Shown in pieces: positions 18,180-27,749 of a DNA stretch of 64,000 nt. Position numbers and translations under genes: made by a program. The DNA lies in the NCBI RefSeq assembly GCF_002914525.1, contig NZ_LODW01000082.1, positions 124,001 to 188,000 on the forward strand. Reading direction: 5' to 3'. Numbering within the stretch: the first letter of the stretch is position 1; every line of letters starts with the position of its first letter. The stretch is from Rhizobium hidalgonense. GTDB taxonomy: Bacteria > Pseudomonadota > Alphaproteobacteria > Rhizobiales > Rhizobiaceae. The notes under the pieces are model-generated. The model worked only from the letters and a program-made list of their open reading frames with translations, was not told where the DNA came from and searched no databases.

Positions 18180-19031
18180 TTATTTCTGTTCGAGGAAGGC
18201 CTTGAACTTGTCGGCATAGTCCTCGTGCCAGCGTGACAGCGGCGGGCGATTCTCGATGATGTCGCCAGCAGCCCAGGCCATGCGGCGCTCGTCGACCGGG
18301 CGGGCCACGTCATTGTCGGGGCACAGGATATAGAAATCGCCGCGCTTGAGGCTCTCGACCATGAAATCCACAGTCTGCTCCGGCGTCCAGGCGCCGGCCG
18401 GCTTTTCCGCGCGGTCGCCCTTGGTGAGGCCGGTGAAGACGAAGCCGGGGATCAGAAGATGCGCGGAGATTTTCGCGCCTTCGATGTTGCGAAGCTCGTG
18501 CTCGAGCGCTTCGGTAAAGACCTTCACCCCGGCCTTTGAGATATTGTAGGCGGGATTACCGGGCGGCGTGGTGATACCCTGCTTCGAGCCGGTGTTGATG
18601 ATCAGCCCAGGCTCGCCATGCGACAGCATCTTCGGGCCGAAGGTGCGCGTACCATTGATCACCCCCATCAGGTTGACGGCGAAGATATGGTCCCAATTCG
18701 CCTGCGGGCTGAAGATCGAGGTTTCCGGGCCGATGCCGGCATTGTTCATTAGCACATGGACGCGGCCGAAACGCTGGAGCACGGCGCGTTCGAGCGCCTC
18801 GAGGGAGTCCCGGCTGGCGACGTCGGTCTCGACCGCCATCACCTCTTCCTCGCCGGCAATGGCCTTGAGTTCGTCTGCGGCGCCCGCCAGCCGGTCGCCG
18901 CCGAGATCGGCGATGACCACGCTCATGCCGGCCTTGGCAAAGTGTCTTGCGGCAGCCAGGCCGATGCCGGACGCGCCGCCGGTGACGACTGCAACATTGG
19001 ATTTCTTGAAAATGTCTTGAATATTCGTCAC
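18180..19031 (-). CDS. Short-chain dehydrogenase/reductase
   Basis: A 283-residue Rossmann-fold oxidoreductase: nucleotide motif VVTGGASGIGLAAARHF, structural NNAGIGPE, and catalytic YNISKAG (YxxxK). The acidic residue in IADLGGDRLAG suggests NAD rather than NADP. Residues near the end (YILCPDNDVARP) are typical of a subgroup without defined substrate. The start is a GTG at 19031 behind GAGGAGGGG; the open frame upstream has no family similarity. It is divergent from argG. Confidence 0.9.
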   Translation of the reverse strand: MTNIQDIFKKSNVAVVTGGASGIGLAAARHFAKAGMSVVIADLGGDRLAGAADELKAIAGEEEVMAVETDVASRDSLEALERAVLQRFGRVHVLMNNAGIGPETSIFSPQANWDHIFAVNLMGVINGTRTFGPKMLSHGEPGLIINTGSKQGITTPPGNPAYNISKAGVKVFTEALEHELRNIEGAKISAHLLIPGFVFTGLTKGDRAEKPAGAWTPEQTVDFMVESLKRGDFYILCPDNDVARPVDERRMAWAAGDIIENRPPLSRWHEDYADKFKAFLEQK

Positions 19032-19206
19032 GGGGAGCCCCTCCTCGGTCGTTGCTCTGACGTTGGCGAATATGGGCTCCGCTTTCGCGCTGTCAACGCT
19101 ATCGCGCCGGCGGTGCCGCACTTGCCCTTGCGTCACGCGTCAATCTCGCTAAAAGTGCCGCGATACCGGGTTTTCGCCGGCCTTTTATGCAACGGACCTC
19201 ATCATC

Positions 19207-20430
19207 ATGGCATCATATAAAGACGTGAAGAAAGTCGTGCTCGCCTATTCCGGCGGCCTCGACACCTCGATCATCCTGAAGTGGCTGCAGACCGAGCTCG
19301 GCGCCGAAGTCGTCACCTTCACCGCCGATCTCGGCCAGGGCGAAGAGCTGGAGCCGGCGCGCAAGAAGGCCGAGATGCTCGGCATCAAGGAGATCTATAT
19401 CGAGGACGTGCGCGAGGAATTTGTGCGCGATTTCGTTTTTCCGATGTTCCGCGCCAATGCCGTCTATGAGGGTGTCTATCTGCTCGGCACCTCGATCGCC
19501 CGGCCGCTGATTTCCAAGCATCTGATCGATATCGCCCGCAAGACGGGCGCCGATGCGATCGCCCATGGCGCGACCGGCAAGGGCAACGACCAGGTTCGTT
19601 TCGAATTGTCCGCCTATGCTTTGAACCCCGACATCAAGATCATCGCGCCGTGGCGCGACTGGGCGTTCAAGAGCCGCACCGACCTGCTCGCCTTTGCCGA
19701 ACAGCACCAGATCCCGGTTGCCAAGGACAAGAAGGGCGAGGCGCCGTTCTCCGTCGACGCCAACCTTCTGCATTCTTCTTCCGAGGGCAAGGTTCTCGAG
19801 GACCCTGCTCAGGAGGCGCCGGAATATGTGCATATGCGCACGATCTCGCCTGAGGCTGCGCCCGACAAGGCGACGGTGATCAAGGTCGGCTTCCGCAAGG
19901 GCGACGCCGTCTCGATCAACGGTGTCGAGATGTCGCCGGCGACGCTGCTCGCGACCCTCAACAATTACGGACGCGATAACGGCATCGGCCGTCTCGACCT
20001 CGTCGAGAACCGTTTCGTCGGCATGAAGTCGCGCGGCGTCTACGAGACGCCCGGCGGCACGATCCTGCTTTCGGCGCACCGCGCCATCGAATCGATCACG
20101 CTCGACCGGGGTGCGGCCCATCTCAAGGACGAGATCATGCCGCGTTACGCCGAGCTGATCTATTACGGCTTCTGGTTCTCGCCGGAGCGCGAGATGCTGC
20201 AGGCGCTGATCGACAAGAGCCAGGAGCATGTCGAAGGCGAAGTGACGCTGAAGCTCTACAAGGGCAATGTCATGGTCATCGGCCGTGAAAGCGAAAAGTC
20301 GCTCTATTCCGACAAGCTCGTCACCTTCGAGGACGACCAGGGTGCCTACGACCAGAAGGATGCGGCCGGCTTCATCAAGCTCAATGCGCTGCGCCTGCGC
20401 ACGCTCGGCAAGCGCAACCTCGTCAAGTAA
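19207..20430 (+). CDS. argG: Argininosuccinate synthase
   Basis: Joins citrulline and aspartate using ATP in arginine biosynthesis. The 407-residue protein has the PP-loop [12 protein letters not shown], the [17 protein letters not shown] helix, [14 protein letters not shown] for citrulline and aspartate binding, and [11 protein letters not shown]. Length and motifs fit the family fully. It is monocistronic with a strong terminator. Confidence 0.98.
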
Positions 20431-20457
20431 TCACGCTTCGCTTTTCGAGTTGAATAG

Positions 20458-20493
20458 GAGCCCGCCGGCATTGCCGCGCGGGCTCTTTTTTTG
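20458..20493 (+). terminator. Terminator of argG
   Basis: GAGCCCGC (20458-20465) pairs with GCGGGCTC (20478-20485), followed by seven Ts. It is 27 bases beyond the argG stop and just before the end of the convergent PurA-like gene. Confidence 0.88.
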
Positions 20494-20500
20494 CCGTGGC

Positions 20501-21712
20501 TCACGCGGCGGCTGCATCCATACGCAGCCTGACATCGCCGCGACGCGGTCCCCAGCTTTCGGCCCAGAGCGGCAGGCCGGCAAGATCGGCTATCTCGGAC
20601 GCCGCTTCGGCAGGATCAAGCCGGATGGCCTCGCCGTGATCCGTGATGGCAAACCCATCTTCGGCCTGATCTAGACAGGTGACGGCCAGTCCGCCTCTGA
20701 TTGTTATGCCGCCGCGATCCAACGTCAGATCGCGGGCAATGGCCTGGCGCAACGTGTCGAGATCGAGCGGAGCGAGCCGCAGAGTACCTTGCCACTCGTT
20801 CGGTGCGTTGGTGGGGTCGACGATATTGATGCCTGATAGTGCGGGAACTTCCCCCTTGAGGGGACCTGCGCCGTGCCGGGTGGTGTAGCAGCGCGTCGCA
20901 TATGTCGCGGCCAGCTCTGTGATGCCGGCCTCGACTGAGATCGCGAGCATGTTCGCGAGCCCGGTATTCGAACGGGTGACGTGGGGAAACACGCCGCGGT
21001 CCTGATCAAGCTCCAGACCCTGTGCCGCTTCGAAGATGACAGGGCCGCGTTCGCACAGCCGCCGGTCGGGCCAGAGCGCGGCGCGGTCGAGATAGGCGGC
21101 GCAATCGGCTTCGAAGCGGGCGGTGGTGATGTCGTCAGCCAGTGCGGCGGCCAGTTCCGCGGGCAGGGCGGTGATGCCGAGCGCGGCCAGCCGGACGGGC
21201 ACCCAGGCATCGCGAATGGAAACAAGCCGGGCATGCAGATCGGGGCGAAACAGATCCTTCGTCGAGAGAGCGAATTCCGGGCGCAGATTGCGCTCGATGG
21301 TCTCGCCGAAGCCGAGGCCGCAACTGCCGTGACGGGCAGTGCCGCGCGCCAGCTCCAAGGCCTGGTTGATGATGACGTCGAAGGGTGTGGTGACCGGGGC
21401 ACGCGGGTCGCTGCTGATCTCGGGCTCCACACCCAGCTGGCCGAGGGCGGTCAATTCATCGAGCAGCAGCATCGGATGGGCGACGAAGAAGCGGCTGAAA
21501 TGGGTGGCAGCGCCGGCAAAGCTGCCCGCGCCAATGTGGTGAAAGACATGGCGCACCCCGGCGGGATCGACCACGGTATGGCCGGCCTGAGCACCGCCAT
21601 TGCTGCGAACCACCACGGCTCCCGGCGTGGCTGCAGCGAGCCGATCGACCATCAGCCCCTTGCCTTCGTCGCCATAAAGCGCGCCGATCACGGCTTGTGC
21701 CTGGGTGCTCAT
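20501..21712 (-). CDS. Adenylosuccinate synthetase-like (PurA/PurZ superfamily) protein
   Basis: A 403-residue relative of PurA, the GTP-dependent enzyme joining IMP and aspartate. Visible are the P-loop GALYGDEGKG with the catalytic Asp, and SNGGAQAGHTV with the catalytic His. GSCGLGFGETIERN and FEAAQGLELDQDRG match the PurA segments around the IMP-binding Thr and Gln. The usual TTGRxRR aspartate/IMP loop is absent; the region reads TRCYTTRHGAGPLKGE, and the end is WAESWGPRRGDVRLR. That suggests an altered substrate, as in divergent PurA or phage PurZ enzymes. The gene sits downstream of a vWA gene in a probable operon, behind GAGGAG. It is unlikely to be the housekeeping purA. Confidence 0.82.
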   Translation of the reverse strand: MSTQAQAVIGALYGDEGKGLMVDRLAAATPGAVVVRSNGGAQAGHTVVDPAGVRHVFHHIGAGSFAGAATHFSRFFVAHPMLLLDELTALGQLGVEPEISSDPRAPVTTPFDVIINQALELARGTARHGSCGLGFGETIERNLRPEFALSTKDLFRPDLHARLVSIRDAWVPVRLAALGITALPAELAAALADDITTARFEADCAAYLDRAALWPDRRLCERGPVIFEAAQGLELDQDRGVFPHVTRSNTGLANMLAISVEAGITELAATYATRCYTTRHGAGPLKGEVPALSGINIVDPTNAPNEWQGTLRLAPLDLDTLRQAIARDLTLDRGGITIRGGLAVTCLDQAEDGFAITDHGEAIRLDPAEAASEIADLAGLPLWAESWGPRRGDVRLRMDAAAA

Positions 21713-21774
21713 GTTCTGCTCCTCAAAATGGGTCCCGGAGGGCGCCGGGGCTTTTGTACTGGAAGATATGGGCA

Positions 21775-21811
21775 GAGCGGTTCAGCTCTTTATGGCAGCT
21801 CAGAACCGCTC
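21775..21811. repeat. Inverted repeat between PurA-like and vWA genes
   Basis: GAGCGGTTC (21775-21783) and GAACCGCTC (21803-21811) form a perfect 9-bp stem. The half-site also appears at 51778-51788 after another gene, so this is probably a dispersed rhizobial repeat rather than a locus-specific site. Confidence 0.55.
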
Positions 21812-21860
21812 CAACCTTTGGTTTTAAATAACCGGGGAAAGCGCGCAGCACTGTCCTGGA

Positions 21861-21990
21861 TTAGAAGAACGGCAGCAGGTGCCGCTTCGGGCGTTCGCCG
21901 ATGGCTTTGGCGACGACTGCAGCCGCCGAACCCGGCCAACTGGCGGCTACGTCGTCGGCGTCACGACCCTCGGTGATTTCGATGATTGAA
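21861..21990 (-). other. Out-of-frame 3' coding extension of the vWA gene
   Basis: In another minus-strand frame, overlapping the vWA 3' end, the sequence reads SIIEITEGRDADDVA, then ASWPG, AAAVVAKAIGERP and HLLPFF before a TAA at 21861-21863. It looks like a true protein C-terminus and continues where the vWA frame turns into low-quality SSKSPRVVTPTT. One base lost, or two gained, near 21985-21995 would explain it. Confidence 0.65.
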
Positions 21991-22762
21991 CCACCAGCTC
22001 GGCAATGCGCCTGTGATCATCGAGCACGAAGGTGCGACCGGGCAGCAGCGGCTGCCAGCTTTCGAGCACCCGGCCGAGCCTCCTGGCCGCATAGCCCTCG
22101 CGGATGACGATGTGGAAGACCTCATAGGATCTTTGCGCCATCGCCAGGCATTCCCGGGCGCTCAGACCGCGCGGCGGTGCGATGCCGAAGATGCGGGCAA
22201 TCTGAGGGGCGGTCAGGCCATTGTGAACCGGCTCGTCGCCGATGGTGAAGAGATAGCCCTTGCGGCCGCGTCTTTCGAAGGCATCGGTCGAGGTTTTGAG
22301 CGCTGCCAGAAGGTGGGCGGCGCTGTAGCTCTCGCCGTCATTGCCACCGCCATTGCCTTCCAGCCACAAGGCGCGGATCTGGCTGGCAAGCGAGATGTCG
22401 GCCTCGAACTGGGTAGCCTGCAACGGTGCCACATCAGTATCCGCATCTCCGACCGCCGCCACCATGATATGCGGATCGGATACCGGACGGCGGTCGTAGA
22501 TCTCCGATGTCAGGGTGATGAGCCCGCCACGCATCAGTTCGTGGGCGATCATGCCCATCGAGCCGGTCACATCCGAGGCCAGAATAATCGGGGTCGATTG
22601 TGGATTGTAGGGGCTGTCGCGGCTCTCGCGGGTGGAAAAGCGCGCCGGGTCCAACTGCGGATCGATGCCGGTGGCCCCGAATACTTCCGACCGGCTGCGG
22701 CCATCCACATGGCGTGCATTGTAGGCCGCCCAGTCGGTTGTGCTGAAACGTCCCATACCCAT
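21947..22762 (-). CDS. vWA-domain protein, MIDAS present, 3' end probably frameshifted
   Basis: A 271-residue protein as read. After an N-terminal segment (TTDWAAYNARHVDG) comes a von Willebrand A fold: IILASDVTGSMG gives a DxTxS MIDAS, and GNGGGNDGESYSAA and YLFTIGDEP follow. No signal peptide or membrane segment, so cytoplasmic. vWA proteins bind metal-dependent protein partners, often AAA ATPases or stress modules. ATG at 22762 is behind a perfect AGGAG and a good promoter. The PurA-like gene lies downstream. The C-terminus is suspect (see the extension at 21861-21990). Confidence 0.82.
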   Translation of the reverse strand: MGMGRFSTTDWAAYNARHVDGRSRSEVFGATGIDPQLDPARFSTRESRDSPYNPQSTPIILASDVTGSMGMIAHELMRGGLITLTSEIYDRRPVSDPHIMVAAVGDADTDVAPLQATQFEADISLASQIRALWLEGNGGGNDGESYSAAHLLAALKTSTDAFERRGRKGYLFTIGDEPVHNGLTAPQIARIFGIAPPRGLSARECLAMAQRSYEVFHIVIREGYAARRLGRVLESWQPLLPGRTFVLDDHRRIAELVVQSSKSPRVVTPTT

Positions 22763-22831
22763 GGTTTCACTCCTTTGCTGTTGCCTTGGCGATCAGGCTC
22801 AGGCGTTTGCCTACTGCCCTTCGTCATCACC

Positions 22832-22860
22832 TATATAGACTTGCAAAGTGCATGTTGCAA
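22832..22860 (-). promoter_or_regulatory. Promoter of the vWA / PurA-like operon
   Basis: On the minus strand TTGCAA (22860-22855) and TATATA (22837-22832) stand exactly 17 bases apart, close to a sigma-70 consensus. Transcription would start near 22825, about 63 bases before the vWA ATG. The -35 box coincides with the middle one of three TTGCAA repeats. Confidence 0.65.
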
Positions 22861-22879
22861 GTTGCTATTTGCAAATTGT
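22838..22879. promoter_or_regulatory. Three TTGCAA iterons at 14-bp spacing (putative operator)
   Basis: TTGCAA occurs at 22841, 22855 and 22869, each step exactly 14 bp; the units share further bases (T-G-C/T after the core). The third is a perfect 10-bp palindrome ATTTGCAAAT. They cover the spacer and -35 region of the vWA promoter, as expected for repressor sites. The divergent Nudix/winged-helix gene is the natural candidate for the binding protein. Confidence 0.6.
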
Positions 22880-22938
22880 CATTTTTTCCGATGGCGCGTA
22901 TGAGAGCCGGAGAACGCGAAAGCGCGTTGTGTCGCCAA

Positions 22939-22963
22939 CCCGGAATCGCTGCACATTTCCGGG
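22939..22963. repeat. Decayed copy of the rhizobial GCTGCACA repeat
   Basis: CCCGGAATCGCTGCACATTTCCGGG is a partial copy of the elements at 13009 and 18123. It lies in the 5' untranslated region of the Nudix-type regulator. Confidence 0.55.
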
Positions 22964-22981
22964 TGTGCATTAACCAGGAAG

Positions 22982-23656
22982 ATGCTGATGGCAGAGGCTG
23001 AATTCGCACGGCCGATCGTGACGGTCGACATCGTCCTGCTGACGCTGCACGAAGGACGATTGTGCACCGCGCTGCTGCCTCGGTCCGCCGAGCCGTTTGC
23101 CGGCGTTCCGGCGCTGATCGGCGGCTATCTGCACATCGATGAGGACGCCGATGCCGAGGCGGCGGTGCGGCGTATCCTCAGCGTCAAGGCGGGGCTCGGC
23201 GGCATATTCTTCGAACAACTCGCAACCTTCGCTTCGGCGCGGCGCGACCCCCGCGACTGGTCGGTATCGATTGCGTATTTTGCGCTGGTCCCACAGGGAG
23301 CCTTGGAGGGCGGCACAAGTCCTCTGGAATTGCGGCCGGCCGAGGCCGCCGGCAAACTGCCTTTCGACCACAATGAGATCCTCAAAGCGGCGCTGGAGCG
23401 GTTGCGCGGCAAGGGCGCCTATTCGACCATTCCGGCAAGGCTGCTTCCCGAGATCTTCACAATGTCCGAACTTCAGGCCATCTATGAAACGGTGATGGGC
23501 GAGCGACTGGACCAGAGCGCCTTTCGCCGCAAGATCAACGATCTTGAGCTGCTCGAAGTCGTCGAGGGCGAAAAACGGCAGACCGAGCGGGCCCGGCGAC
23601 CGACGACGCTCTATCGGCTGAAGACGCCGGTGGCTGTGTTCGATCGGCGAATTTGA
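22982..23656 (+). CDS. NrtR-like regulator: degenerate Nudix domain plus winged helix
   Basis: A 224-residue protein with an N-terminal Nudix fold (PIVTVDIVLLTL; FAGVPALIGGYL) and a C-terminal winged-helix-like region (IFTMSELQAIYETVMGERLDQSAFRRKI, ending RRPTTLYRL), the NrtR arrangement. The Nudix box is broken: where REUxEExGU is expected it reads RILSVKAGL, so all catalytic glutamates are gone. It is thus likely a nucleotide or ADP-ribose-type ligand sensor, not a hydrolase. It is divergent from the vWA gene across three TTGCAA boxes. ATG at 22988 behind AGGA is an equally good start. Confidence 0.82.
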   Translation: MLMAEAEFARPIVTVDIVLLTLHEGRLCTALLPRSAEPFAGVPALIGGYLHIDEDADAEAAVRRILSVKAGLGGIFFEQLATFASARRDPRDWSVSIAYFALVPQGALEGGTSPLELRPAEAAGKLPFDHNEILKAALERLRGKGAYSTIPARLLPEIFTMSELQAIYETVMGERLDQSAFRRKINDLELLEVVEGEKRQTERARRPTTLYRLKTPVAVFDRRI

Positions 23657-23700
23657 GCGACCAGAAGGACGCGCCTCTTCCTGGCTCTGCATTCGGCAGA

Positions 23701-24678
23701 TCATTCGTGCGCAAGCAATGTCTTTCCCGATGCAAATTGGCGATCATAGAAAATCCGCACTGACAGAACGACGCCGGCGATCAGGACAACCACGCCAGCG
23801 ACTTCGATCGGGGTTGGCCAACGAGCATGCACGACAAGTCCCCCAATGACACCGAAGGCTGTTTCCGAAACGATCAGTTGCGCCGCCAGGGCGACGGGCA
23901 GGCTCCGTGACGCAATGTTCCAGGCCCAGACGCCGCCTACGGTTGCCAGCAGCGCGAACGATGCACCCCAGATATACAGGTTGCCGGCGGCACTCCAGCC
24001 GAACCCCAATGCTGGAAGCTGGAAGAGGCCGATCTCGGCACCGACGGGATAGAAGGCCAGCATCAAGACACCACCTCCGACCAATATCAGCGCCGACCAC
24101 ACACTGGAGGGCATGTCTGGTCGGGCGGCGAGTGCAGCCTGATTGGCGAGCGCGAACGAGACCCAAAGCCCCACGGCAGCAAGCGCTAGCGGCACGCCAA
24201 CCCACAATGATTCGACGGAGCTCAATCCTTCAACCGTGAATGCCGTGCCATTGACGAGAACAAGGCCGACCAGCACCAGCGCCAAAGGCATCATCAGGGA
24301 TCGCCACGGCAATGATCCCTGACGCTGGTTGCCAATGACCATCAATACGATCGGTACCAGACCGAGAAAGGCCGGAGCGATTACCGGGCCGGCAAAGACG
24401 GCCGCTCCGGTCACCGTCAGGAAGTAGCCGACATATCCGACGAAGGCGAGCCAGATGGCCTGCAAACAGTTCCGAAGCGTGACGTGGCGCATTACACGCT
24501 TCTCCGAAAACAGAATGTAGAACCCCACCAGACCCGAGACAACATGACGGATGAGGGCAAAATCAAAGGTGGAATAGTCACCGATGATGAAGGGCACAAC
24601 AAAGTTGAGCGAAAAGGCAAAGGCCGCAAAGAGAGCGGCTGACACGCCAACATGGAAGAGTCTGTCCATAATGTTCAC
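23701..24678 (-). CDS. DMT-superfamily (EamA-like) transporter
   Basis: A 325-residue membrane protein with about ten hydrophobic segments in two halves, the EamA arrangement. The first half has FAFSLNFVVPFIIGDYSTFDFALIRHVVSG; the second ends VIGGLVVHARWPTPIEVAGVVVLIAGVVLSV. These proteins export metabolites or amino acids; the substrate is unknown. It is divergent from a LysR regulator and so probably under its control. Confidence 0.85.
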   Translation of the reverse strand: MNIMDRLFHVGVSAALFAAFAFSLNFVVPFIIGDYSTFDFALIRHVVSGLVGFYILFSEKRVMRHVTLRNCLQAIWLAFVGYVGYFLTVTGAAVFAGPVIAPAFLGLVPIVLMVIGNQRQGSLPWRSLMMPLALVLVGLVLVNGTAFTVEGLSSVESLWVGVPLALAAVGLWVSFALANQAALAARPDMPSSVWSALILVGGGVLMLAFYPVGAEIGLFQLPALGFGWSAAGNLYIWGASFALLATVGGVWAWNIASRSLPVALAAQLIVSETAFGVIGGLVVHARWPTPIEVAGVVVLIAGVVLSVRIFYDRQFASGKTLLAHE

Positions 24679-25053
24679 CCTCTTGAAGTTGCGTCGCTGA
24701 GCCTTGACTCCGGTGACGCCGACAGTCGGTTCGCTATCAAGGGAAACCCTTGATCGAATGGGCGAAAGTTACTTGCCGAAAGCCCTGACCGGTAGCCAGC
24801 GAAAATGAGAACCACCCTCTCGACGCTCATCCAGGCAATCGCCAATCAGTTCTGCTCCGAAGCCGAGTTGAACGGCAGGAGGCCTATCCGGCGCGATGAT
24901 GGTGCAATGCCCCGACCATTGCTCCCCGCTTCTCGAGCGTCGCCTGCAGCGATGTGGCCGCGACACTTCTGGGGCAACCGCGCTGTGCCGCCTATTCACC
25001 GGAAGCGATTCCTCATATCCTCAAATATCAAGGCTTCTAATTGTCGGGGCGTT
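24679..25053. other. Divergent region between DMT exporter and LysR gene
   Basis: 375 bp with no supportable gene. It contains the perfect palindrome at 24736-24754, close to the exporter start. Frames are open on both strands near 24800-25000 but neither shows a recognisable protein. Confidence 0.45.
24736..24754. promoter_or_regulatory. Palindrome ATCAAGGG-AAA-CCCTTGAT, possible operator
   Basis: Two perfect 8-bp arms with a 3-bp centre, 58 bases upstream of the exporter start. The size fits a dimeric regulator site; the divergent LysR protein is the obvious candidate, though classic LysR sites have a T-N11-A shape. Confidence 0.45.
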
Positions 25054-25959
25054 ATGGATCGGCTTGATGCAATGCGGGTTCTGCTTGCCGTAGTTGACGC
25101 CGGGAGCTTGTCGGCGGGCAGCCGGAAGCTGAACGCACCGCTGCCGAGCGTCAGCCGCAAGGTTGCCGATCTGGAGCGATATTTCGGCACAAACCTTATC
25201 ATCCGAACAAGCCGCAACCTGCAACTCACCGATGCCGGTCGCGACTATGTCGACGCGGCGCGCAAGATTATTGCCGATCTGGAGGAGGTCGAACGCAGGG
25301 CGTCAGGTGAGTATCAGACGCCGCGGGGATTGCTGACCGTCACGATGCCGATCGAGTTTGGCCACCGGTATGTCCTGCCGATTGCACTCGACTTCATGGA
25401 CAAGCATCCGGAGGTGATATTGAACGTGCTTTCACTCGACCGCTCTGTCCATCTCGTCAATGAACAGGTCGATGTCGCCATCCGGCTTGGTGATTTGGTC
25501 GACAGTTCGCTCCACGCCGTCAAGGCCGGCGAGTTTCGTCTGTTGACCTGCGCGAGCCCGGCCTATCTGGAACGGCATGGCGTTCCCCAACATCCCACCG
25601 AGCTTATCAATCACGATGGGATCATGTTCCACAACCGGTCGTTCTTTTGGAGTTTCGAGATCGACGGGAAGTCCGTCGAACTGTTGCCCCAGAGCCGGAT
25701 CGAGGTGAACACGGCCGCCAGTTGCGTCGCCGCCGCGCTCAATGGAGCCGGCGTCGCCCGGCTCTTCGACTATCAAGTTCCGGAGGAAGTGTCCTCGGGC
25801 GCGCTCGTGCAGATTTTGAAGGACTATGGCGGCGAGTCCAAGCCGATCAACATCGTCTATTCGCGTCAGGGCTTACTCGCCCTCAAGGTGCGTGCCTTCG
25901 TCGATTGGGCGCTGCCCCGGCTTCGCGCGGCTTGCAGCAACTATGGCGATATGCCGTAG
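25054..25959 (+). CDS. LysR-family transcriptional regulator
   Basis: A 301-residue regulator. The N-terminal helix-turn-helix is MRVLLAVVDAGSLSAGSRKLNAPLPSVSRKVADLERYFG, followed by the linker and an effector-binding domain (DVAIRLGDLVDSSL, NTAASCVAAALNGAGVARLFDYQV). The start at 25054 follows family length; the frame is open 83 codons more upstream without similarity. It resembles the group that regulates divergent exporters or oxidoreductases; here the DMT exporter is the neighbour. Confidence 0.92.
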   Translation: MDRLDAMRVLLAVVDAGSLSAGSRKLNAPLPSVSRKVADLERYFGTNLIIRTSRNLQLTDAGRDYVDAARKIIADLEEVERRASGEYQTPRGLLTVTMPIEFGHRYVLPIALDFMDKHPEVILNVLSLDRSVHLVNEQVDVAIRLGDLVDSSLHAVKAGEFRLLTCASPAYLERHGVPQHPTELINHDGIMFHNRSFFWSFEIDGKSVELLPQSRIEVNTAASCVAAALNGAGVARLFDYQVPEEVSSGALVQILKDYGGESKPINIVYSRQGLLALKVRAFVDWALPRLRAACSNYGDMP

Positions 25960-25997
25960 TCGCCCATCATTGTCATCTCGGTGGCTCCTCTTTCGCC

Positions 25998-26214
25998 TCA
26001 ACGAACGACGCGATCGACCTGCGCCTGAAGGCGGGGACCGACCAGCAGGATGGCGGGAATGACGATGAGATAGGCGATGCTCCACGAGCGGAGCCATGTC
26101 AGGGCGAATCCTTTCGAAAAGCCCAGATTGAGCGCAATCAGCGTGAAGGAAATCAGCTCTGTCGTTACGATGCCCATCGACAGAGCGAAGACGACGTTTG
26201 AAATCCGTGTTCAT
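25998..26214 (-). pseudogene. DUF2798 membrane protein gene, frameshifted
   Basis: The ATG at 26214 opens MNTDFKRR, then the correct protein continues one base out of frame: FALSMGIVTTELISF, TLIALNLGFSKGFALTW, LRSWSIAYLIVIPAILLVG, RLQAQVDRVVR, stop at 25998-26000. This is a complete two-helix DUF2798 protein of about 71 residues. A single extra base (or two missing) near 26189-26191 breaks it. Either real decay or a sequence error. Function of the family is unknown. Confidence 0.7.
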
Positions 26215-26637
26215 GTCGGTCTCCCGGCTGGATGTGAAAGCGGGATCGCTTCAGCGGTTGCGACCCCGGGTTGGCGCTGTGACGATCGCGCAATTCCGGC
26301 ATCGGCGGTAGCGAGAGAACCCGAGAGCCAGCCTCTTGAATCCTGAAAGGTCTCAACGGCCGGGAAACCGTGAGATCGGTCGAGAAGCGACAAACTCCCC
26401 TGTCGCCAACGCGCCCCAAGCTCCACCACTCATGCACCCAGTGTGACTGGCCTTGTCTACGCCGATCGCCTGGCGCGCTGCGGATATGATCTTTGCTGCT
26501 CACATGCCGATCGAAAATGAGAGGCTCACTCTCGTTTCAGCTCACTACTGGGCCGGACTTGCGACGCTCATCTTCTCGTCATCGCGCGGCCCCCTTGATC
26601 CTGGGCGGCGTTCGTCAAACCAACAAGGAGTATCTGA
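26215..26637. other. 423-bp stretch without a recognisable gene
   Basis: Long frames exist on both strands but none gives a protein I can recognise, and their composition (many S, R, P) looks like shadow translation. It presumably holds the promoters for the DUF2798 gene and ohr. An AAGGAG at 26625 is the ribosome site of ohr. Confidence 0.4.
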
Positions 26638-27043
26638 ATGTCGAGTCATCTACACTGGCACCACCAACACCATCGGCGGGCGTGATGGCGCGTCTCGCAG
26701 TTCCGATGGGCGCCTCGACGTGAAATTGTCCCCGCCCGGTTCCGCGGGCTCGGGCACCAATCCCGAGCAGCTCTTCGCTGCGGGCTGGTCCGCCTGTTTC
26801 CTCGGTGCGATCGGGAGAGCGGCCGCCGAGCGCCAGCTGCGCGTCCCCGCCGACGCCGCCATCAATACCGAGATCGACCTGGTTTCGAATGACGACGGCT
26901 ATGTGCTGCAGGCGCGGCTTAATGTGAGGCTGCCGGGCATCGCGGCGGACCTCGCCAAGTCCCTGATCGAAAGTGCTCACCAGCTCTGCCCTTATTCCAA
27001 GGCCACCCGGGGCAACATCGCCGTCGAACTGAACGTCGCTTGA
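26638..27043 (+). CDS. ohr: Organic hydroperoxide resistance protein, start out of frame
   Basis: Ohr reduces organic peroxides with a cysteine pair. Both are here: AAGWSACFLGAI and HQLCPYSKATRGN. The body reads VIYTGTTNTIGGRDGASRSSDGRLDVKLS and is full length, about 134 residues. The ATG at 26638, ideally placed behind AAGGAG, is one base out of frame with this body: its own frame stops after 15 codons. No other start lies in the Ohr frame close by. The gene is thus frameshifted at codon 2-3, or the sequence has an indel error. No ohrR-like repressor gene is adjacent. Confidence 0.78.
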
Positions 27044-27134
27044 TCGGTCTCCGATCAAGCGCTCTCCACCCCAACATTGCGCCGGCGTCCCGACAGTCGT
27101 CGGTCATAACCGGCGCACTACGCAGGATTTTGTC

Positions 27135-27587
27135 ATGACCGTGATCGCAAGAGCTCTCGCAACGGCAGGTCTTCTGTTTGCCGCCAGCACACCCGTCTAC
27201 GCGCAAACACCGCATCCCGCAGCCACGCAGTTTCTTCCCATCAAGGACGAGCCTGCGCCCCAATTGTTCGTGGATCAGCCCCTTCCGGGACCACTGGCGA
27301 GCAGAGCGGTGGTCATCATTCCCTATCGAACCGAGAATTTCCGCATCCTGCCAATCTTTGGCGCCAGCGCCAGCGACGTCTCGCCAAGGGCCGGCCATCT
27401 CCATGTCAGCATCGACGACCTGCCTTGGCGGTGGGCTGATGCGGGTGGTACCGGCGCTGTAGTCCTGACAGGCTTGCCGCCAGGCGAACACAAGGTGCTG
27501 ATCGAAATCGCCACGCCGGAACACGAGGTGCTTGGCGGAAAGGCTGTGAAGTTCACTGTCCCGGCGATCGACAGCGCGCACCATTAG
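27135..27587 (+). CDS. Secreted protein, DUF6130-like
   Basis: A 150-residue protein with a clear signal peptide (MTVIARALATAGLLFAASTPVYA-QTP). The mature part includes GHLHVSIDDLPWRWADAGG and LTGLPPGEHKVLIEIATPEH, a beta-rich pattern I associate with DUF6130. The His-x-His and the PGEHK loop resemble small copper-binding or Ig-like periplasmic folds, but no function is known. It follows ohr by 91 bases in the same direction and may share its stress context. Confidence 0.68.
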   Translation: MTVIARALATAGLLFAASTPVYAQTPHPAATQFLPIKDEPAPQLFVDQPLPGPLASRAVVIIPYRTENFRILPIFGASASDVSPRAGHLHVSIDDLPWRWADAGGTGAVVLTGLPPGEHKVLIEIATPEHEVLGGKAVKFTVPAIDSAHH

Positions 27588-27749
27588 AGGTCACTCCGAC
27601 ATAGTGGCTCAATTCGGCTGCGTCCGCTTCGTGCCGGCAGCTGCCGCCAGCGGCGTTTGCTACCTCATCCCCTTTTCATCGGCATTCGCCGCCCTTGACG
27701 GATGCCCGGGATGGCTTACTCTGCCGCGATCATCCTCCGGAGCATCTCC

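Follow-up and report, generated by a model that had tools for sequence, protein, structure and literature searches.

In the Ter triads a vWA protein is paired with a kinase. PurZ, a phage paralogue of adenylosuccinate synthetase (PurA), proved to make a new DNA base. A survey counted 481 phage proteins of Pfam family PF00709 and 147 phage PurZ (PMC12884076), the remainder not being discussed in the passages of that paper available to us. The words 'PurA' and 'adenylosuccinate' are absent from the main text of the paper describing ADP-ribosylglycohydrolase systems under Nudix or WYL regulators (PMC9503650) and of two papers on vWA systems (PMC7824862, PMC7159879). A search of the open-access literature, outside which most subscription papers lie, found no description of a system of vWA and PurA-like proteins. 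Here we describe such a system from a window of 64,000 nucleotides of the Rhizobium hidalgonense contig NZ_LODW01000082.1 (positions 124,001 to 188,000, forward strand). A vWA gene and a PurA-like gene lie on the minus strand, divergent from the gene of a regulator with Nudix and winged-helix domains. This arrangement had been proposed in an initial annotation made from the sequence alone and is borne out: the three open reading frames (ORFs) were found at the positions it gave, and ORFs, Pfam matches and the vWA model agree. Each component of the system belongs to a known superfamily.

The vWA and PurA-like genes form a conserved mobile two-gene core that is accompanied by two frequent further genes. 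A profile search yielded at least 558 relatives among bacterial and archaeal genomes and a further 487 among viral contigs, and the best 80 of each were read. According to the record titles, the relatives among these best 80 belong to Pseudomonadota, Clostridia, other Bacillota, Acidimicrobiales, Acidobacteria, Melainabacteria and Cyanobacteria, with others in Desulfobacterota-type bacteria and a Treponema bin; several are metagenome bins. Four families were mapped with hidden Markov models over 179 loci and the window, the counts being restricted to loci with room for the neighbour and plasmids being included with the bacteria. Of the bacterial loci, 82 of 84 have the PurA-like gene downstream of the vWA gene, as do 80 of 82 viral ones; the gap is less than 300 bp in 81/82 and 59/80 respectively. 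The identity matrices of the two proteins are correlated over 139 loci (r 0.82, the highest of 200 permutations giving 0.11). The conservation of the pair across loci rules out that the two are chance neighbours, and the compact cassette of the initial annotation is therefore retained as a unit. In one viral contig (L155:4242-7574) the order is rearranged to PurA-like, J-domain gene, vWA, and in Mycobacterium phage MoMoMixon (L007:6885-7151) a small annotated ORF separates vWA and PurA-like.

The frequent fourth gene encodes a J-domain protein with a degenerate kinase-like region and lies upstream of vWA in 57 of 83 bacterial and 41 of 81 viral loci; like the phage distribution and a frameshift in the window vWA gene, it was absent from the initial annotation. 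Its identity matrix follows that of vWA (r 0.86 over 83 loci; highest permutation 0.15). After length and score filters, 96 of 102 J-domain proteins were counted, and 88 of these carry the HPD motif. Among 46 aligned members, 37 match Pfam DnaJ at 0.01 and none matches a kinase Pfam profile at that threshold. Five plasmid or phage members were scanned at full length: that of a Mycobacterium phage matches Pkinase (3e-8) and two plasmid ones do so weakly. The member at locus L015 matches a Kdo-kinase model at 4e-4. A strong NrtR-type regulator (above 200 bits) is present in 52 of 83 bacterial and in none of 81 viral loci. The window holds a bacterial copy of the operon that lacks the fourth gene; this arrangement, with regulator and no J-domain gene, is found in 21 bacterial loci. 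Elsewhere in the Rhizobium genome, only short matches of J-domain size were found.

No gene outside the four families accompanies the unit as a fixed member in bacterial loci, other clusters occurring in at most 11 loci. Read by eye, the three largest appear to be an ABC-transporter ATPase (11 loci), a LysR-type regulator (8) and a short-chain dehydrogenase (7). The neighbours that had been guessed at, namely PRPP synthetase, ADP-ribosylglycohydrolase and Ter genes, are not supported as fixed members. No bacterial cluster recurring in at least four loci was recognised by eye, without the use of Pfam, as an ADP-ribosylglycohydrolase, nor was a MoxR AAA+ partner seen by the same reading; at locus L011 the pair is followed downstream by a gene annotated as an AAA ATPase.

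In a tblastn search, 226 of 50,697 phage records matched the PurA-like protein, 207 of them over at least 80% of the query, and 206 matched vWA; these are chiefly Mycobacterium, Rhizobium and Vibrio phages, with the pair in its bacterial order. When the phage PurA-like ranking was sampled evenly from top to bottom, the last five rows of the sample covered 26-61% of the query. Among 72,556 plasmid records, 21 matched vWA. Of 120 genomes from the genus, 16 have the vWA gene; the figures are 2 of 151 for a family sample and 6 of 398 for a phylum sample. In the window it is flanked by argG and, farther off, by a LysE-like gene (named by reading its sequence). The three genomes without vWA that were read have other sequence between these two genes, over about 0.7, 1.4 and 5.9 kb, and in one vWA-bearing genome window positions 18184-24836 (argG to an EamA gene) are joined directly to the stretch from 27672. 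The region 20441-27672, between argG and the LysE-like gene, looks like a variable insertion site. Bacterial and phage PurA-like copies are intermixed on a tree built by a quick method and with some long branches, which shows at least nine label changes, three of them forced by well-supported branches.

The PurA-like protein matches PF00709 with 130 bits (cut-off 27) and remains below both curated NCBIfam PurA cut-offs (107/402 and 92/396 bits). Its model, with a predicted local distance difference test (pLDDT) score of 94.6, superimposes on PurA (the E. coli 1ade/1cg4 fold) with Z 40.3 and a root mean square deviation (rmsd) of 2.3 A over 367 residues, the best PurZ giving Z 32.6. On the quick tree, 72 PurA-like rows split from 8 PurA rows with maximal support (SH-aLRT 100). 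As the initial annotation had supposed, it is not the only PurA of its host: the Rhizobium genome (7.27 Mb, 139 contigs) carries a canonical purA scoring 585 bits on a separate contig, which rules out the window gene as the ordinary purA. One PF00709 match was found in 28 of 31 sampled genomes of the phylum. A side observation concerns Paenibacillus locus L091 (8983-11292), where a PurA-like ORF of 769 amino acids (aa) shows, by eye, an intein-like insert at the AGH/T active-site motif.

The motifs GDEGKG, AGHT, EGAQG and YxTR are kept in PurA-like proteins. Residues were compared in two sets: an alignment, A3, made up of the window protein and 63 relatives out of 75 selected, and a wider one of 163 rows, which alone holds the actinobacterial and mycobacteriophage branch. 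The catalytic set D15, K18, H45, Q231, T246, R279, R312 and D348 (window numbering) is the same in 64/64 rows of A3. In the wider set, D15, K18, H45 and R279 are each found in 162 rows, Q231 in 163, T246 in 161, R312 in 159 (K in 3) and D348 in 153 (N in 8); the catalytic Asp has a gap in its one remaining row. Other positions differ from PurA throughout the family (E. coli numbers derived from the alignments). V273 is replaced by H280 in 64/64 rows of A3 and 163/163 of the wider set; T301 by Q308 in 64/64 and 162/163, being changed in all 163; N38 by Q42 in 64/64 and 158/163; T128 by S130 in 64/64 and 157/163; and T129 by C131 in 57/64 and 137/163, being changed in 156/163. The Arg-rich aspartate loop (R303, TTGRxRR) is one residue shorter in 64/64 proteins of A3, although the gap could equally be shifted by one or two residues. 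N38, T128/T129, V273, T301 and the R303 loop are conserved in all 30 PurA compared; these rows, from one phylum, were chosen by their WGDEGKG motif, which is therefore conserved among them by construction. In PurA, N38, T128 and T129 belong to the 5'-phosphate pocket. According to a study of PurZ (PMC8342488), R303 touches the 2'-oxygen of inosine monophosphate (IMP) and binds aspartate, and the conserved Val adjoins C2'. With the catalytic set kept and pocket residues replaced, base recognition and phosphoryl transfer look intact in these sequences; it is the sites for sugar/phosphate and amine that look rebuilt. The unusual purine conjugate of the initial annotation is made plausible by these family-wide differences from PurA.

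The vWA protein has no Pfam match at E-value 1, and a sequence search for solved relatives gave none that was significant. Its AlphaFold2 model (pLDDT 88.9) resembles integrin beta I-like domains, the top rows having Z 16.0-16.2 and rmsd 2.9-3.8 A over 188-196 residues. Of 181 matches, 151 passed filters on length and score, and all of these (151/151) have an intact metal-ion-dependent adhesion site (MIDAS, DxTxS). Leaving aside rows cut by a contig end, the aligned N-terminus reads MG in 147 of 148, with L069 as the exception, and in 121 of 151 rows this MG coincides with the first start in the longest ORF. The window protein, with 271 aa for a family median of 307, has its conserved tail out of frame with the remainder of the gene; in the close relative L026 the tail is read in one frame. 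The frameshift could be a real mutation or an assembly error. At L094 (7992-11259) two vWA genes stand in tandem ahead of the PurA-like gene. On a Rhodovulum plasmid (L009:6101-9029) the regulator, J-domain gene and vWA are present and the vWA ORF has a TonB-receptor-like end; no PurA-like gene was found at this locus, and an annotated IS3 transposase lies nearby. None of the three cassette proteins of the window matched PADLOC at E-value 1.

The regulator scores 67.6 bits against NrtR_WHD (cut-off 27) and 16.5 bits against NUDIX, below the cut-off of 21.1. The nearest solved relative of its family profile is 3gz5 (MutT/nudix family protein, E-value 2e-65), an NrtR. The reference list of PMC9503650 likewise gives 3gz5 as NrtR. 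A stretch RD-x-RGWS is common to the regulator family and 3gz5 and absent in AraR; it reads RDPRDWS in the window. The Nudix motif is REUXEEXGU. At its expected place the window protein has RRILSVKAGL and the Nudix Glu residues are gone; in the family, R64 is found in 30/30 members and Glu at position 68 in 11/30. By analogy with NrtR, the ligand may be of a nicotinamide adenine dinucleotide (NAD)/ADP-ribose type.

The repeated operator-like boxes noticed initially are a conserved array of three TTGCAA at 22841-22874. For their spacing pattern, chosen post hoc once the boxes had been seen, 100 shuffles of the window gave an expected number of 0.00. Eleven orthologous regions including the window were aligned, of which L004 is contained in L026; three boxes are found in 9 of the 10 distinct regions and two in the remaining one, L033. 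With up to three mismatches allowed, a 22-nucleotide part of the array has a single match in the 7.27 Mb genome (reversed control, 0). This whole-genome search showed no wider regulon, although a more divergent operator would escape it. Methylobacterium-type loci (L066, L084, L185) have a perfect palindrome around TTATTTGCAAATAA. A candidate promoter, read by eye, overlaps the array: TTGCAA at 22855-22860, a 17-nucleotide spacer and TATATA at 22832-22837. A consensus promoter scan requiring 9 of 12 positions listed no promoter, and promoter and terminator scans gave nothing above chance. The cassette is probably self-regulated.

Neighbours of the phage copies were taken on the same strand, within four genes and from 130 aa upwards, giving 276 candidates and 254 at 90% identity. 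All but one large mycobacteriophage protein were scanned, and the 25 most frequent of 90 and of 55 families were considered; no ADP-ribosylglycohydrolase was among these. The 253 proteins include five NADAR, three NAPRTase, one NadA and one Tad3 Thoeris inhibitor, as well as four NUDIX and three nucleotidyltransferase-like proteins, two classes that may overlap. About 0.6 NADAR and 0.3-0.4 NadV-type genes would be expected from published frequencies if 200 genes per genome are assumed.

The gene unit is well supported; we infer its chemistry. Tentatively, we favour as quite possible a reading in which the operon of vWA and PurA-like genes, with the J-domain/degenerate-kinase-like gene where present, is a mobile element switched by a ligand of NAD/ADP-ribose type that, together with vWA, aminates an unusual hypoxanthine-type nucleotide. 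The NrtR-type regulator would sit on the TTGCAA array over the vWA promoter and repress it, and would be released on binding a nucleotide of NAD/ADP-ribose type. Using GTP or another nucleoside triphosphate, the PurA-like enzyme would activate the 6-oxo group of the hypoxanthine-type nucleotide, whose place an amine would then take. Because the residues of the 5'-phosphate, ribose and L-aspartate pockets are replaced, the substrate is probably other than plain IMP and the nucleophile is probably not free aspartate in its usual pose. vWA may be a partner that the enzyme needs, one whose metal site and near-invariant N-terminus would serve to present or recognise a peptide or protein, and the J-domain protein, where encoded, may bring in Hsp70 (DnaK). 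The likeliest role would be nucleotide synthesis or repair in NAD/ADP-ribose-linked stress or in phage-host conflict; a stress or phage role of the cassette had been supposed initially and may hold.

Several observations weigh against this reading. The regulator misses the NCBIfam NtrR equivalog cut-off (151 of 400 bits) and its family profile also matches AraR (E-value 8e-60), for which reasons its ligand could be another molecule. AraR is described in PMC4666351 as an NrtR-family factor for arabinose use. As for the enzyme, N38 of PurA is still present in 4/163 PurA-like rows, K331 of PurA has become C or H in 64/64 rows of A3 and the guanine-reading Asp is Asn in 8/163; we are unsure of GTP use. 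The window locus has no J-domain gene and its vWA is frameshifted, so that this copy may be impaired or may not work. Most of the 253 phage neighbours are of other or unknown kinds, and the excess of NAD genes among them is suggestive and comes from a post hoc comparison with published frequencies. These genes are moreover not independent and cluster with each other, and they are common in large phages: PMC9503650 reports NADAR in more than 48% of medium and jumbo phages and NadV in 22% and 33%.

Other explanations were weighed against the same evidence. The enzyme might be a second ordinary adenylosuccinate synthetase, induced by nucleotide stress to turn IMP and aspartate into the AMP precursor, with vWA merely an assembly or stability factor. 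This is unlikely though not to be dismissed lightly, for the enzyme retains the catalytic Asp, Lys, His and Gln and, in most members, the GTP Asp, and among solved folds PurA enzymes come closest (Z 40). However, the TTGRxRR loop, N38, T128/T129 and V273 have given way to other residues in almost every relative, the curated PurA models are missed widely and the host genome already has a purA. Phage homologues are annotated as '2-aminooxy adenylosuccinate synthetase' (PHROG 1211), which would fit a synthesis of 2-aminoadenine for phage DNA as by PurZ. That identity is hardly credible and was rejected on the catalytic residue and the profile scores: PurZ is defined by Ser or Gly in place of the catalytic Asp and has Ser there in all 147 phage sequences of PMC12884076, whereas Asp is found here in 162/163, and the NCBIfam PurZ score is 39 bits for a cut-off of 300. 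An enzyme that is PurZ-like but acts on hypoxanthine, with a deoxy- or 2'-modified nucleotide as substrate (deoxyinosine monophosphate to succinyl-dAMP, for example), could serve phages in nucleotide supply or in the removal of a signal of the dITP type. The shorter loop (64/64), the His in place of V273 over the ribose (163/163) and the retained catalytic Asp agree with it. In PurZ the equivalent of R303 lies farther from C2', a position that according to PMC8342488 precludes stabilisation of a ribonucleotide. We nevertheless hold this reading to be distinctly unlikely, the genes being found on bacterial chromosomes too, beside an NrtR-type regulator, and no gene of the dNTP pool being a constant companion in the bacterial loci; the retention of vWA would also be left unexplained.

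The changes at N38, T128 and T129, residues of the 5'-phosphate pocket in PurA, would suit an extended 5' group. The enzyme could then re-aminate the hypoxanthine form of a dinucleotide of NAD/ADP-ribose type via a succinyl or other amine adduct, in line with the NrtR-type regulator and with the NADAR, NAPRTase, NadA and Tad3 genes near phage copies. The neighbour signal is weak, however, and the pocket could suit other ligands, which makes this quite improbable. A more radical reading would make the PurA-like protein a nucleotide-protein ligase that, in place of free aspartate, joins C6 of a hypoxanthine nucleotide to an amine of its partner, in the simplest case the near-invariant N-terminal glycine of vWA. 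Such 'purinylation' would explain the changed aspartate loop, the near-constant vWA neighbour and the conservation of the vWA N-terminus. We consider it very improbable; if true, it would be a new post-translational modification common to bacteria and phages. Our preferred reading remains the amination of an unusual hypoxanthine-type nucleotide with the help of vWA. The features of the locus are collected in Table 1.

Table 1. Features of the vWA/PurA-like locus (window coordinates)
Feature	Position	Strand	Basis and remarks
PurA-like enzyme, 403 aa, adenylosuccinate synthetase paralogue	20501..21712	-	Pfam, NCBIfam, model, alignments
vWA protein, 271 aa, intact MIDAS (DVTGS), N-terminal MG	21947..22762	-	Model, structure alignment; C-terminus frameshifted relative to relatives
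vWA C-terminal tail, conserved, in another reading frame	about 21885..21989	-	Comparison with relatives
Operator-like array, three TTGCAA boxes	22839..22876	-	Kept in orthologous regions
Possible promoter of vWA/PurA-like	22832..22860	-	Read by eye, inferred
NrtR-type regulator, degenerate Nudix domain and winged helix, divergent	22982..23656	+	Likely start Met at 22988, matching the start of the L033 orthologue

A core of two proteins, with a purine-ligase active site that is kept but re-tooled, has remained together across bacteria of several phyla and in large phages, including well-studied phages of Mycobacterium smegmatis. The vWA/PurA-like pair points to an unrecognised nucleotide pathway, and knowing what the PurA-like enzyme acts on could bring to light a new metabolite or signal of nucleotide type, or a new protein modification. 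Through the NrtR-type regulator it can be asked directly when cells need the cassette.

Compared with the Ter triads, the kinase region is degenerate and fused to a J-domain, and the vWA protein is accompanied by a PurA-like enzyme instead of Ter proteins. The Nudix/WYL-regulated ADP-ribosylglycohydrolase systems with a vWA chaperone described in PMC9503650 share a Nudix-type regulator and a vWA protein with our system, in whose bacterial loci no ADP-ribosylglycohydrolase was recognised as a fixed member. NrtR (3gz5/3gz6) and AraR (5bs6) have the same combination of Nudix and winged-helix domains, and the family consensus RDPRGWS resembles RDARGWS of 3gz5; the cassette regulator differs in adjoining this cassette and in having no second copy of the 22-nucleotide operator part in the genome within three mismatches. 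The PurA-like proteins have the fold of PurA (PF00709), its motifs GDEGKG, AGHT, EGAQG and YxTR and, in most members, its guanine Asp, but they differ in the residues facing the IMP ribose, the 5'-phosphate and aspartate in its loop and stand on a separate branch of the tree. PurZ and PurZ0 of the Z-genome phages (7odx, 6fm1, 7vf6) are likewise phage-borne PurA paralogues with an altered aspartate/ribose loop. Unlike them, the PurA-like enzyme keeps the catalytic Asp, adjoins vWA and occurs in bacteria too, often with an NrtR-type regulator.

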